From Streptacidiphilus anmyonensis (GTDB lineage Bacteria; Actinomycetota; Actinomycetes; Streptomycetales; Streptomycetaceae): a stretch of DNA of 64,000 nucleotides. Below the pieces are notes generated by a model. It was not told the DNA's origin. It saw nothing but the letters and a program-made list of their open reading frames with translations, and did not search any database. The position numbers were made by a program, and so were the translations under genes. Positions within the stretch are counted from its first letter, which is position 1; each line of letters starts with the position of its first letter. This document shows positions 8,918 through 13,895 of this stretch, in pieces. The stretch lies in NCBI RefSeq assembly GCF_000787855.1, contig NZ_BBPQ01000004.1, positions 1 to 64,000 of the forward strand, written 5' to 3'.

Positions 8918-8969
8918 CGCGATGTCACCGAACAACCTGAAGAAGCCCACGAAGGACGAGAGCGGCACC

Positions 8970-10241
8970 ATGAGCTCCGACGCACCCCGCCCGCGGCCGT
9001 CCGGCCCGCAGCTGTCCCGCCGTCGACTCCTCGGCGCCGCGGGCGCGGGCGGCGCCGCCGGTCTGGCCCTCGGCGCGGGCGGCTACGCCCTCGCCGGGCC
9101 GCCGGCTCCCCGCCGGTCGGCCGACGCGGCCGTCCCCGCGACCGCGCTCGGCAGCACGGCAGTGGCCTTCCACGGCGCCCACCAGGCGGGGATCGTCGAG
9201 CCGATGCAGTCCTCCCTCCACGCGACCGCCTTCGACCTCACCCCCGGCACCGCACGTCCCGGGCTGACCGCGCTGATGAAGCGATGGTCCGCGGCGGCGG
9301 CGGCGATGGCGGAGGGCAGGACCCCGCCCGGTCTGACGGACGACCAGGTCGCCCTGGACGCCGGACCGAGCTCACTCACCGTCACCTTCGGCTTCGGCGC
9401 TTCGGTCTTCGCCAAGGCCGGGCTGACCGCGCAGCTGCCGGGCCAACTCGCCGCGCTGCCGCCGTTCCCCGAGGACCGCCTCGACCGCTCCCGCAGCGAC
9501 GGCGACCTGTGGGTGCAGGTCTGCGCGAACGACCCGCTCGTCGCCTTCCACGCGATGCGCACGCTCCAGCGTCTCGCCGCCGGCCAGGCCGTCCCGCGCT
9601 GGCAGATGACCGGCTTCAGCCGCGCCCCGGGCGCGACGGCACGACCCATGACGGGCCGCAACCTGATGGGGCAGATCGACGGCACCAACAACCCCAAGCC
9701 GACCGACGCGAACTTCGCCTCGCGGATCTTCGTCCCGCAGAACGGGCAGCCGCCGTGGATGGCGGGCGGCAGCTACGCCGTCTTCCGGCGGATCCGGATG
9801 CTGCTGGACGTCTGGGACCAGCAGTCTCCGGAGCTCCAGGAGCGCACCATCGGCCGCCGCAAGGCGTCCGGCGCCCCGCTGTCGGGAGGCACCGAGACCA
9901 CGCCCGTCGACCTGGCCAAGCAGAACCCGGACGGCTCGCTGGCGGTCCCCGGCGACGCGCACGTGCGGGTGGCCGCACCCGCCTCCAACCAGGGCGCGGC
10001 GATGCTGCGGCGCGGCTACTCCTACCACGACGGGTTCCGCTCGGACGGAGCGCCGGACGCGGGGCTGCTCTTCGTCTGCTTCCAGTCCGATCCGCAGACG
10101 GGGTTCGTCCCGGTGCAGCGCAAGCTCGCCCGCGGGGACGCACTGTCGCGGTTCATCGTGCACGAGTCCTCGGGCCTGTACGCGGTCCCGGGCGGCGCGG
10201 CGGCGGACGGGTACGTGGGGCAGGCGCTGCTGGAGGGTTAG
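8970..10241 (+). CDS. dtpA: Tat-exported DyP-type heme peroxidase (DtpA)
   Basis: A 423-residue protein with a twin-arginine signal (SRRRLLGAAGAGG) and the DyP signature GxxDG in MGQIDGTNN. The proximal heme histidine is expected in DAHVRVAAP, and the distal Asp/Arg pair is present (Asp of GQIDG, Arg of MLRRGYSYHDG). In S. coelicolor/lividans, DtpA lies next to pheA and the sco genes, is a Tat substrate, and is needed for maturation of the copper radical oxidase GlxA and for normal development. The same order here supports orthology. ATG 8970 (AAGGA 11 bases upstream) is preferred to ATG 8922, which lacks a ribosome site. Confidence 0.93.
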   Translation: MSSDAPRPRPSGPQLSRRRLLGAAGAGGAAGLALGAGGYALAGPPAPRRSADAAVPATALGSTAVAFHGAHQAGIVEPMQSSLHATAFDLTPGTARPGLTALMKRWSAAAAAMAEGRTPPGLTDDQVALDAGPSSLTVTFGFGASVFAKAGLTAQLPGQLAALPPFPEDRLDRSRSDGDLWVQVCANDPLVAFHAMRTLQRLAAGQAVPRWQMTGFSRAPGATARPMTGRNLMGQIDGTNNPKPTDANFASRIFVPQNGQPPWMAGGSYAVFRRIRMLLDVWDQQSPELQERTIGRRKASGAPLSGGTETTPVDLAKQNPDGSLAVPGDAHVRVAAPASNQGAAMLRRGYSYHDGFRSDGAPDAGLLFVCFQSDPQTGFVPVQRKLARGDALSRFIVHESSGLYAVPGGAAADGYVGQALLEG

Positions 10242-10369: not shown

Positions 10370-11302
10370 GTGTCCGCGAACCGATTCACCTACCTCGGTC
10401 CGGAGGGCACCTTCACCGAGGCCGCGCTGCGGACGCTGCCCGAGGCGGCCACCCGGGAGCTGGTGCCGGCCGTGTCGGTGCCCGCCGCGCTGGACGCCGT
10501 CCGGAACGGCGAGGCCGCGGCCGCGCTCGTGCCGATCGAGAACTCCGTCGAGGGCGGGATCCGCCAGACCATGGACGAGCTCGCCCAGGGCGAGCCGTTG
10601 ATGATCTACCGCGAGGTGCTGCTGCCGATCGCCTTCGCGCTGCTGGTCCGGCCCGGGACGAAGCTCGCGGACGTGAAGACCGTCACCGGTCATCCGGCCG
10701 CCCAGCCGCAGGTGCGCCACTGGATGTCGGAGAACCTGCCGGACGCGCACTGGGAGTCGGCGGCGTCCAACGCGGACGGGGCGCGGCTGGTGCAGGAGGG
10801 CCGGTACGACGGCGCGTTCGCGGGCGCGTTCGCCGCGCCGCTGTACCACCTGGAGCCGCTGGCGACGGAGATCCACGACGCCGCGAACGCGACGACGCGC
10901 TTCGTGCTGGTCGGCCGTCCGGGACGGCCGCCGGCGCCGACGGGGAGCGACAAGACCTCGGCCGTGTTCTGGCTGGCGGACGACCACCCGGGCGCGCTGC
11001 TGGAGCTGCTGCAGGAGTTCGCCGTGCGCGGGGTGAACCTGATGCGCATCGAGTCCCGGCCGACGGGCGAGGGCTTGGGCAAGTACTGCTTCGCCGCCGA
11101 CGCGGAGGGCCACATCACCGACCGCCGGGTGAGCGAGGCGCTGATGGGCCTGCACCGGATCTGTCCGCAGGTGCGGCTGCTGGGCTCGTACCCTCGGGCG
11201 GACGCGGTGCCGGCGACGGTGCGCCGGGGCACCTCGGACGCGGAGTTCGCCCGCGCCTCGGACTGGCTGTCCCGCGCTCTGGACGGCCGCGGCGAGCTGT
11301 AG
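10370..11302 (+). CDS. pheA: Prephenate dehydratase
   Basis: A 310-residue enzyme converting prephenate to phenylpyruvate in phenylalanine synthesis. The catalytic domain (about 1-185) contains the TRF motif (NATTRFVLVG) and VPIENSVEGG. The C-terminal ACT domain (about 205-280) has GALLELL and ESRP, the usual Phe-feedback motifs. Start is GTG 10370 with GGGAGG 6 bases upstream. It is monofunctional, with no chorismate mutase domain, as usual in actinomycetes. An array of DnaA boxes follows directly. Confidence 0.95.
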   Translation: MSANRFTYLGPEGTFTEAALRTLPEAATRELVPAVSVPAALDAVRNGEAAAALVPIENSVEGGIRQTMDELAQGEPLMIYREVLLPIAFALLVRPGTKLADVKTVTGHPAAQPQVRHWMSENLPDAHWESAASNADGARLVQEGRYDGAFAGAFAAPLYHLEPLATEIHDAANATTRFVLVGRPGRPPAPTGSDKTSAVFWLADDHPGALLELLQEFAVRGVNLMRIESRPTGEGLGKYCFAADAEGHITDRRVSEALMGLHRICPQVRLLGSYPRADAVPATVRRGTSDAEFARASDWLSRALDGRGEL

Positions 11303-11321: not shown

Positions 11322-11603
11322 TGGTCCACACCGTCGGCCGAGTTATCCACAGGCGGCCTGGTTATCCACAGCCTGGGGATCGACCGCGAGATCCGACTAA
11401 TCTCCCCTTGCTCATCAAAGCTTGCAGACCAGGCAAGTCGGACATATAGGGATTCCGAGCGGCAGTTTCCCCAAAGTCCCCTTCGTGGACCCAAAAAATC
11501 ACGCCCCCGGCCGCAAACTCGAGGTTTAGCGAGCTCAGGGGCGTGATTACCCACAATCCACAGGGCTTCGAGGCGGCCTGTGGATAAAGGCGGGATATCC
11601 ACA
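11322..11603. promoter_or_regulatory. DnaA-box cluster (about seven 9-mers)
   Basis: This non-coding gap holds three perfect TTATCCACA boxes: 11343-11351 and 11362-11370 forward, 11579-11587 reverse. Four near-matches accompany them: TGGTCCACA 11322-11330, TTACCCACA 11547-11555, CAATCCACA 11554-11562 and ATATCCACA 11595-11603. The perfect 9-mer is expected only very rarely by chance in such GC-rich DNA. There is no dnaA or dnaN here, so this is not oriC. It more likely titrates the initiator DnaA. In S. coelicolor a high-affinity cluster named D78 lies about 78 kb from oriC and restrains replication; the serS-pheA position makes this a candidate counterpart (inference). Confidence 0.8.
11497..11548 (-). 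terminator. Rho-independent-like terminator of the deacetylase gene
   Basis: AATCACGCCCC (11497-11507) and GGGGCGTGATT (11538-11548) form a perfect 11-bp stem. Reading leftward it is followed by a run of six T, so it would stop minus-strand transcripts from the gene ending at 11635. One DnaA-like box overlaps the stem edge. Confidence 0.7.
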
Positions 11604-11634: not shown

Positions 11635-12435
11635 TCAGGCGTCGGGGAAGTTGACGGAGTAGCCCTGCTGGATCAGCCACGGCAGCACCTGGGCCAGAGC
11701 CGCCACGGTCTGGCTGCGGTCACCGCCGGCGTCGTGCATCAGAATGATCGAACCGGGCCGCACGTTCTTCTTCACGTCGGCCACGATCGCGGCCACACCG
11801 GGGCGCTTCCAGTCATTGGTGTCGATGCTCCACGCGAGCGGACGCAGTCCGTTCTTCGCGGATATCCCGCGGATCTCGGGCGTGAAATCCCCTCCGGGCG
11901 CCCGGAACCAGCTGACCTGCGTTCCCGGGCCGCCCGCCGCCTCGATCATCTGCTTGGCGCCGACGATCTCATTGGTCTCGTAGGCGAGACCGCGCGTCGA
12001 CATCGCCTCGTTGTGGTGGACCGAGTGGTCGCAGAGCCGGTTGCCGCCGGCGAGCACCTGCTTGACCACGCCCGGGGCCGCCTGCGCCTCGGGGCCTATC
12101 TCACAGAAGGTCGCGTGCGCGTTGTACTTGGCCAGCAGTGCGAGGATCCGCGGCGTCCACTGCGGGCTCGGGCCGTCGTCGAAGGTGAGCGCGACGGTCT
12201 TCTCGCCCGCCGGGTGGGCGATGTAGTACTCGAGTTCCTTGCTGACCGTCTCGGCCCCGCTGGACGGAACGGTGTCGCCGGAGGTGCTCTTCGGGTTCGG
12301 CGAGGCACTCGCCGTGCCGCCGCCCGCGGCCCCGTCGTTGCTCGCCCCCCGCGCACCGGCGCCCCCACCGCAGGCGGAGAGAGCCAGCACCGCCGCCAGC
12401 ACCCCTCCAGCCACCGCCACCGCACGCGTCCGCAT
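11635..12435 (-). CDS. Polysaccharide deacetylase lipoprotein (NodB family)
   Basis: A 266-residue carbohydrate esterase family 4 enzyme. The lipobox LSAC follows a signal sequence, and a Gly/Ser/Thr linker leads to the NodB domain (about 75-266). Motifs: TFDDGPSP (catalytic Asp pair), DHSVHHNE (metal histidines), [10 protein letters not shown] and [11 protein letters not shown]. It probably removes N-acetyl groups from peptidoglycan or another surface glycan. The last motif is nearly identical to that of the fusion enzyme at 29451-31955. I start at ATG 12435 so that the protein begins with the signal peptide. Confidence 0.9.
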
Positions 12436-12605
12436 CGCCTGTCCCACCTTCCGTTCACCGTTCGCAGGTTGTCGTCTGCCGAACAACTGTCGCAGCCCTG
12501 AAAGCGTGCTCAGAGCGATCGCACAGCTTTGACGTAGCCCCGGGACGAAGATGTGACAAAGCAGACCCGGCGGTTGTGAGTCCGCTCACCCCTCGCCGCG
12601 CCCGG

Positions 12606-12617: not shown

Positions 12618-13895
12618 GTGATTGACCTTCGCCTGCTTCGCGTGGACCCGGACCGTGTGCGTGCTTCCCAGCGCGCCCGAGGTGAGGACGTCGAGCTCGT
12701 CGACGCCCTGCTCGCCGCCGACGAGCGGCAGCGATCGTCCAGTTCCCGCTTCGACGAACTCCGCAACGAGCAGCGGCAGCTGGGCAAGCAGGTGGCGCAG
12801 GCCAAGGGCGACGAGAAGGCCGCCCTGCTGGAGCGCACCAAGCAGCTGGCCACGGAGGTCAAGGCCGCCAACGCGGCGCAGACCGAGGCCGAGGCCGAGG
12901 TGCAGCGCCTGCTGGGCGGGCTGGCCAACCTGCTCGACCCGGCCGCCCCGATCGGCGGCGAGGAGGACTTCGTCACCCTCGAGGAGGTCGGCACCCCGCG
13001 CGACTTCGCCGCGGAGGGCTTCGAGCCGCGCGACCACGTCGAGTTGGGCAAGATCCTCGGCGCGATCGACACCGAGCGCGCTGCCAAGGTCTCCGGCTCG
13101 CGCTTCTACTACCTGACCGGCGTCGGCGCGCTGCTGGAGCTCGCCCTGGTCAACATGGCGATCGCGCAGGCCACCGAGGCCGGCTTCATCCCGATGATCA
13201 CGCCGGCGCTGGTGAAGCCGCGCGCGATGGAGGGCACCGGCTTCCTCGGCCAGGCCGCGGAGAACGTCTTCCACCTCCCGGAGGACGACTTCTACCTGGT
13301 CGGCACCTCCGAGGTGCCGCTGGCCGCCTACCACATGGACGAGATCCTCGACGGCGACCAGCTGCCGCTGCGGTACGCCGGGTTCTCGCCCTGCTTCCGC
13401 CGCGAGGCCGGCACCTACGGCAAGGACACCCGCGGCATCATCCGCGTCCACCAGTTCGACAAGGTGGAGATGTTCTCCTACGTCGCGCCGGAGGACGCGG
13501 AGGCGGAGCACAAGCGCCTGCTGCAGTGGGAGAAGGACTTCCTGAACAAGCTCGGCCTCGCCTACCGCGTCATCGACGTGGCTTCGGGCGACCTGGGCGC
13601 GTCCGCGATGCGCAAGTACGACATCGAGGCGTGGATCCCCACCCAGGGCAAGTACCGCGAGCTGACCTCGACCTCCAACTGCGGTGAGTTCCAGGCGCGT
13701 CGCCTCGGCATCCGGATGCGCGGCGAGGAGGGCAACCGCCCGCTGGCCACGCTGAACGGCACGCTGTGCGCGGTGCCGCGCACCATCGTGGCGCTGCTGG
13801 AGACCCACCAGCTGGCCGACGGCTCGGTCGTCGTGCCGGAGGCGCTGCGGCCCTACCTGGGCGGGCGCGAGGTGCTGACCCCGGTCGGCAAGTAA
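12618..13895 (+). CDS. serS: Seryl-tRNA synthetase
   Basis: A 425-residue class II synthetase that charges tRNA-Ser. The N-terminal coiled-coil arm (about 30-100) binds the long variable arm of the tRNA. Motif 2 is [21 protein letters not shown] and its end, KVEMF; motif 3 is [16 protein letters not shown]. The start is GTG 12618 (V-I-D-L-R-L-L). No ribosome site is visible and a -10 element lies just upstream, so translation is probably leaderless. The divergent gene is the polysaccharide deacetylase; a HAD hydrolase follows 45 bases downstream, as in Streptomyces. Confidence 0.96.

Follow-up and report, generated by a model that had tools for sequence, protein, structure and literature searches.

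A 2006 study by Smulczyk-Krawczyszyn and colleagues reportedly described three clusters of DnaA boxes, D78, H24 and H69, together with the affinity of D78 and the phenotype of its deletion. How multigenomic mycelial bacteria decide on re-firing is poorly understood, and to our knowledge a D78-type DnaA sink is one of the few known brakes on origin re-firing. In the available excerpt of a review that cites Smulczyk-Krawczyszyn 2006, a chromosomal DnaA-box cluster of Streptomyces coelicolor that is analogous to datA represses untimely initiation (PMC5742627). The same excerpt gives R1 and R4, which match TTATnCACA, as the strongest boxes of E. coli oriC and describes the DARS core as three boxes in plus-minus-minus order (PMC5742627), and an extract of another paper lists the S. 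coelicolor high-affinity box as TTGTCCACA (PMC4285127). In the accessible parts of two further papers, S. coelicolor pheA is SCO3962 (PMC6585502) and serS is SCO3961 (PMC4595836). The map position of D78 was not found in the literature that we searched, with subscription journals beyond reach. We take cosmid D78 to carry the pheA and serS genes of S. coelicolor.

The window, by which we mean the whole stretch of 64,000 nucleotides that was analysed, is C150:1-64000 of a 9.39 Mb genome in 153 contigs. An earlier note, made from the letters of the window, had proposed a D78-like replication control site in a non-coding gap of the pheA/serS neighbourhood. This reading is supported by the boxes at the same junction in relatives and by the distance from dnaA. 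Judged by its position, the cluster is orthologous to a pheA-serS cluster of most Streptomycetaceae examined, which says more than that it is D78-like.

The box cluster and its surroundings

The earlier note had counted three perfect TTATCCACA boxes and four near-matches in the 282 bases from 11322 to 11603, and our box search of the window found all of them in place (Table 1). The gap that holds them is non-coding as claimed, with 332 bp between the pheA end at 11302 and the pda end at 11635. The direct repeat 19 bases apart (11343 and 11362) and the two boxes that overlap by two bases (11547-11555 and 11554-11562) were likewise confirmed. The list of seven stood in part when six genomes, the window included, were aligned: five of the boxes (11343, 11362, 11554, 11579 and 11595) are invariant in all six, as are 140 of the 229 non-box columns, but the near-match at 11322 is unconserved and the one at 11547 partly conserved. 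The former probably lies outside the element and the latter may not be functional as a site. The weak box at 11554 faces the right box at 11579, with 25 bp from start to start.

Table 1. DnaA boxes and neighbouring features, in window positions
Feature	Position	Strand	Remarks
Dyp-type peroxidase gene	8922-10241		Pfam
pheA, prephenate dehydratase	10370-11302	+	Left flank, 3' end facing the cluster; Pfam PDT, ACT
Near-match TGGTCCACA, two mismatches	11322-11330	+	0 of 9 columns invariant
Outer left box, perfect TTATCCACA	11343-11351	+	9 of 9 columns invariant in six aligned genomes
Inner left box, perfect TTATCCACA	11362-11370	+	Anchor for the family-wide comparison
Inverted repeat, 11-bp arms	11497-11548	.	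Between left and right boxes; folding energy about -31 kcal/mol on one strand and about -34 kcal/mol on the other
Near-match TTACCCACA, one mismatch	11547-11555	+	6 of 9 columns invariant; overlaps hairpin edge and next box
Weak DnaA box CAATCCACA (NNNTCCACA), two mismatches	11554-11562	+	Invariant in six genomes
Right box, perfect TTATCCACA	11579-11587	-	Invariant in six aligned genomes
Weak DnaA box ATATCCACA, one mismatch	11595-11603	+	Invariant in six genomes
pda, polysaccharide deacetylase gene	11635-12486	-	Between cluster and serS, 3' end facing the cluster; Pfam Polysacc_deac_1
serS, seryl-tRNA synthetase	12618-13895	+	Start codon inferred; Pfam Seryl_tRNA_N, tRNA-synt_2b

With up to one mismatch, TTATCCACA occurs 7 times in the whole window against 1.18 expected, a count that none of 100 shuffles reached, and 5 of the 7 matches fall in 11343-11603. 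The genome-wide count that the earlier note had suggested gives 19 TTATCCACA in 9.39 Mb, against 2 for the backward control, and 3 of the 19 are in the window cluster; for TTRTCCACA the count is 48, against 16. A simple Poisson model expects about 1e-6 such 282-bp windows per genome. In our list of places in the genome with at least three TTRTCCACA within 300 bp there are only the window cluster and C150:140549-140727. The shuffles, the Poisson expectation and the gap-against-flank counts given below rule out a chance cluster.

We also rejected a coding gap, as the ORFs extending into the gap either overlap pheA in a different frame or are antisense, and a known RNA element: the Rfam search of the gap gave no significant match, and the best hit was an animal microRNA at 22.4 bits, below the gathering score of 90. 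The inverted repeat was recovered as a hairpin in the window and in 4 of the 6 relatives tried (weaker in L022), and the search pattern failed in the other 2. It probably serves as a two-way terminator for pheA and pda, which converge on it.

Conservation and history of the cluster

The earlier note had made its reading depend on relatives holding boxes at this same gap, and most of those examined do. We compared 82 loci picked by close PheA matches, 44 from named organisms, 37 further ones and the window, whose PheA is 97% identical to the PheA of Streptacidiphilus jiangxiensis, S. melanogenes and S. neutrinimicus. Two of the 82 stretches are identical, which leaves 81 distinct gap sequences, and serS is the right flank of the gap in loci without an inserted gene. 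Every one of the 82 pheA-serS stretches has 2-5 perfect TTRTCCACA and at least one TTATCCACA. The gaps, 57,243 bp in all, contain 246 perfect TTRTCCACA, whereas the flanks, at 473,844 bp, contain 9; reversed boxes number 0 in the gaps and 1 in the flanks. The gaps hold 173 copies of TTATCCACA, against a mean of 0.165 and a maximum of 7 for 200 permuted 9-mers.

The layout of the boxes was compared by anchoring each locus on the plus-strand TTATCCACA, with the nine box bases as the search string. In 80 of the 82 loci a plus-strand TTATCCACA faces a minus-strand TGTGGANAA 185-372 bp away; this layout is not kept in the remaining 2 (L087 and L098). Among the 80 anchored loci, the left box is preceded by G in 79 and followed by G in 77, and 55 have a second minus-strand box 29-33 bp past the right box. 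A plus-strand TCCACA stands ahead of the right box in 76 of them, at 22 bp in 74 and at 21 bp in 2; of 13,938 random flank positions, 25 have a TCCACA anywhere in the 45 bp before them. The three bases ahead of this TCCACA are variable, so it is a weak box or a half site. The window fits this layout with 11362(+), 11554(+) and 11579(-). It departs from it in having an extra left box 19 bp away, and the plus-strand ATATCCACA at 11595 replaces the second minus-strand box.

To correct for the bias of this selection, we fetched the missing genera through serS and then through PheA, which brought out seven negatives. Upstream of serS in 13 further family genomes, 9 of the stretches have at least two perfect TTRTCCACA; these nine come from genera g6, g8, g9, g10, g14 and g15, and none copies any of the 82 loci. 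The cluster is absent from the other 4 of the 13 serS-upstream stretches, all of them from g2 or g4, where the stretch from G001 carries little weight alone since it precedes a distant serS relative (39% identity). On the pheA side of seven g2/g4 genomes, four of them shared with the serS-side set, all seven lack a perfect TTRTCCACA. The exceptions to conservation are thus four misses plus three further genomes, all in two genera. In total, we found the cluster in 91 of 98 Streptomycetaceae loci and in 15 of the 17 genera sampled. Genera g2 and g4 are mostly without a genome-wide box excess too (TTRTCCACA against backward control: 44/35 in G001, 59/34 in G018, 58/41 in G004 and 46/54 in G020).

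We placed these genera on a PheA tree of 43 sequences, which is limited by using one short protein, by an outgroup that does not fall on one side of a branch and by some weak forks, and in which the labels g6, g9 and g14 for named rows were assumed from genus names. On this tree g2 and g4 form one clade (100/97) that has no cluster and branches first in the family. All cluster-bearing family rows, along with five f18 rows, lie beyond a supported branch (99/97). The simplest history would be a single gain after g2 and g4 had split off, and the alternative would be loss in g2 plus g4. None of the seven g2/g4 genomes carries the element, so the family can live without it.

Outside the family, none of 40 pheA-downstream stretches has a perfect TTRTCCACA; these were hand-chosen from listed pheA places, and one is 2.4 kb long and the others about 3 kb. 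In three genomes outside the family (G338, G407 and G398) pheA is still about 85-219 kb from dnaA; for G277 the distance is about 134 kb, provided that the contig is circular. Tandem TTRTCCACA pairs were found across the class in 67 of 197 genomes, a pattern that misses the window genome with its third box in the opposite direction. Since many of these pairs lie at different places and outside the family, tandem TTRTCCACA as such is not special to the Streptomycetaceae.

Position near oriC and other box clusters

In the window genome dnaA is the ORF at C150:123776-125581 and dnaN the ORF at C150:126399-127541. This puts oriC in the 0.8 kb between them (about C150:125.58-126.40 kb) and the cluster 114 kb away, on the dnaA side of oriC, which is within the approximately 100-200 kb of a D78-type cluster. 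The guess that pheA and serS would be at about this distance from dnaA also holds more widely: in 27 of 27 Streptomycetaceae genomes that carry the two genes on a single contig, the distance between pheA and dnaA is 75-222 kb, with a median of 100 kb. The oriC region itself has several weak boxes, one TTRTCCACA and zero TTATCCACA.

Contig C150 makes up 2.9% of the assembly, yet it carries 16 of the 48 TTRTCCACA and 9 of the 19 TTATCCACA. The binomial p values for this enrichment are about 3e-13 and 1e-9, respectively, and both overstate the enrichment because boxes inside one cluster are not independent.

A second cluster on this contig is at C150:87160-87247 (L066:5161-5248), where a plus-strand TTATCCACA is followed by minus-strand boxes 14, 35 and 79 bp on. 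It sits between two divergent genes, dnaB (replicative helicase, minus strand) and one for a MatE transporter (plus strand), 38 kb from oriC. A third, at C150:140549-140727 (L064:14550-14728), lies about 14 kb past oriC, flanked by a rhomboid gene and a DUF881 gene, and has four perfect TTRTCCACA. Similar triads are on the contig of the pheA-side cluster in six genomes (G006, G032, G043, G055, G084 and G096), and G084 and G096 also have a box pair 80 bp apart between the serS-side cluster and the third cluster. The box layouts of the dense places at C150:87.2 kb and C150:140.6 kb are unlike that of the window cluster. Away from this contig, two perfect TTATCCACA in inverted orientation lie 35 bp apart at C116:33270-33313, next to a gene for a VTT-domain protein. 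In genus g15, G015 has 209 TTATCCACA and 320 TTRTCCACA genome-wide with low backward controls, and the other 60 family genomes counted have 7-42 TTATCCACA. This is a large expansion of DnaA-box-like sites.

Proposed function and known systems

We consider it likely that the cluster is a conserved, origin-proximal, high-affinity DnaA-binding element, orthologous by position to the pheA-serS cluster of most Streptomycetaceae examined and most likely to D78, and that it restrains initiation as a sink. The boxes, their conservation, position and layout and their independence from the neighbouring genes can all be read from the DNA, and, as in a D78-type cluster, several boxes of high-affinity type are close together in non-coding DNA outside oriC. 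We infer that DnaA binds here in the window genome, that this has an effect on initiation and what the sign of that effect is. The boxes of the element would be occupied by DnaA more readily than the weak ones in oriC. Since copying of the element would come early after firing, each new round would double the strong sites near the origin, and the doubled sites would draw free DnaA from oriC and delay re-initiation. If this is true, loss of the element should raise the origin-to-end ratio and extra copies should lower initiation.

The accessible part of one paper lists a 28-base site for ScbR, the gamma-butyrolactone receptor, for S. coelicolor serS (PMC4595836). Among the 81 gaps, this 28-mer is matched best, at 22 of 28 positions, inside the element of Streptomyces sp. 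M41(2017) (L042:5210-5237); 300 shuffles had a mean of 17.7 and a maximum of 21, and 0 of 300 reached 22. As far as the listed site goes, the match supports homology of the S. coelicolor gap. A ScbR site inside the element would be a possible link between signalling and replication control.

Against a purely passive sink, the fixed 25- and 30-bp spacings exceed what it needs, and about six sites may be few relative to the DnaA pool of a mycelial compartment. The rigid right core leaves room for more than passive binding. We hold, much more tentatively, a wider reading in which the element could be a built DnaA-handling device that was gained once after the g2/g4 split. It would have a variable-length arm with a GTTATCCACAG site and a rigid core (a weak box, 25 bp, a strong inverted box and, in most loci, one more box after 30 bp) on which a defined DnaA complex would form, to switch or trap DnaA. 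The element would be one of three collinear origin-proximal clusters (pheA-serS, dnaB-MatE and rhomboid-DUF881) and would be touched by ScbR in Streptomyces, linking initiation control to development.

We think it unlikely that DnaA acts here as a transcription factor whose boxes control serS (or pheA) and so couple replication to translation or to the supply of amino acids. Where pda is absent and serS was found (70 loci), the last perfect box is 30-297 bp before serS (median 186 bp), and the ScbR site, which the accessible text puts in front of S. coelicolor serS (PMC4595836), has its best match in the element interior; both would fit such a role. However, pda comes between cluster and serS on the minus strand in 11 of the 82 loci (the window and 10 others), and in genus g15 a DAGK/PAP2 gene does so in the same orientation as pda. 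In all 11 pda loci the perfect boxes are kept between the pheA stop and the pda end (the latter from tblastn). In the window, the boxes are between the 3' ends of pheA and pda and not upstream of a gene, as those of a DnaA-controlled promoter would be.

The cluster also persists where pheA is gone. A whole-genome search at E <= 1e-40 gives no PheA match in G084 or G096, which are otherwise near-complete, and in both the cluster, carrying the same boxes, comes after a Dyp peroxidase gene (G084:C1:4024300-4026900, L158, and G096:C20:297840-300440, L159). Between the peroxidase gene and the cluster, G084 has only a 37% match to PheA residues 231-308, and G096 has no PheA match at E <= 1e-3. The opposite case, pheA without the cluster, is found in f18. 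Five of its six PheA rows (L180-L184) form one clade (100/99) that groups with g1/Streptacidiphilus rows (97/92) and is nested inside Streptacidiphilus rows at forks of 94/84 and 91/68; the sixth row (L185) is outside. Yet eight f18 stretches (L106-L113), from both genera of the five grouped rows, have no perfect box, and in the two one-contig genomes checked (G285 and G332) pheA is megabases from dnaA. The tree suggests that the pheA of these five rows was transferred without the cluster. From the inserted genes and the loss of pheA we conclude that the cluster can persist without pheA and without serS next to it, and since it then lies between two 3' ends or is kept without pheA, a promoter role is unlikely. 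The cluster is just before serS in most loci, so it may have a side role there.

A catalytic DnaA-remodelling site like datA or DARS, in which the inverted pair and the tandem box would join DnaA molecules for ATP hydrolysis or ADP release, seems about as improbable as promoter control. In its favour, the inverted pair keeps a fixed spacing of 25 bp in 74 of 80 loci, and 55 of 80 have another minus-strand box 29-33 bp on. We measured the E. coli DARS1 and DARS2 cores at what we take to be their chromosomal positions, where they hold plus-minus-minus triads spaced 14 and 12 bp, against 25 and about 30 bp in the relatives. The plus-minus-minus order matches that of the E. coli DARS core in the review excerpt, but the third box of the window is on the plus strand, and the effect given there for S. 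coelicolor is repression of initiation, the opposite of DARS (PMC5742627).

A second or dormant replication origin is very improbable: DnaA boxes in both orientations and a GC of 0.63 over the 420 bp after pheA would suit it, but there is no AT-rich unwinding stretch (the top AT fraction among 50-bp steps is 0.48), the flanking genes found are metabolic, and dnaA and dnaN, separated by the usual box-rich gap, are elsewhere on C150 and do not enclose the window cluster.

The element is an old, positionally fixed feature across most of the sampled family and not the oddity of a single strain. Natural rearrangements part its function from the neighbouring genes, and the alignment serves as a box-by-box conservation map. 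The dnaB and rhomboid-DUF881 clusters are further origin-near candidate sites.

Among the known systems, the origin-proximal peak of DnaA-box density in E. coli (PMC12371093) resembles the box excess near the origin seen here, with 16 of 48 TTRTCCACA on the oriC contig. That peak is an extended region of many boxes, whereas much of the excess here is in three compact clusters. The order of the right-side boxes in 55 of 80 loci is like that of the DARS core; the spacings of 25 and about 30 bp in the relatives and the reversed third box of the window are unlike it, as the window does not have three boxes with I opposite II and III at 14 and 12 bp, and DARS raises initiation. Like datA, which limits initiation according to the review excerpt, the element is a non-coding DnaA-box cluster outside oriC and downstream of genes. 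By the same excerpt, datA requires an IHF site and acts through hydrolysis of DnaA-ATP (PMC5742627), and the likeness is drawn with no claim of sequence kinship.

The window cluster differs from D78 in that a deacetylase gene parts it from serS, in that its right side has the plus-strand ATATCCACA instead of a second minus-strand box about 30 bp on, and in its two left boxes 19 bp apart. It is like D78 in having strong DnaA boxes outside oriC in an origin-proximal place. The pheA and serS genes are adjacent by number in S. coelicolor, and the named Streptomyces loci carry the cluster in the gap between these two genes.
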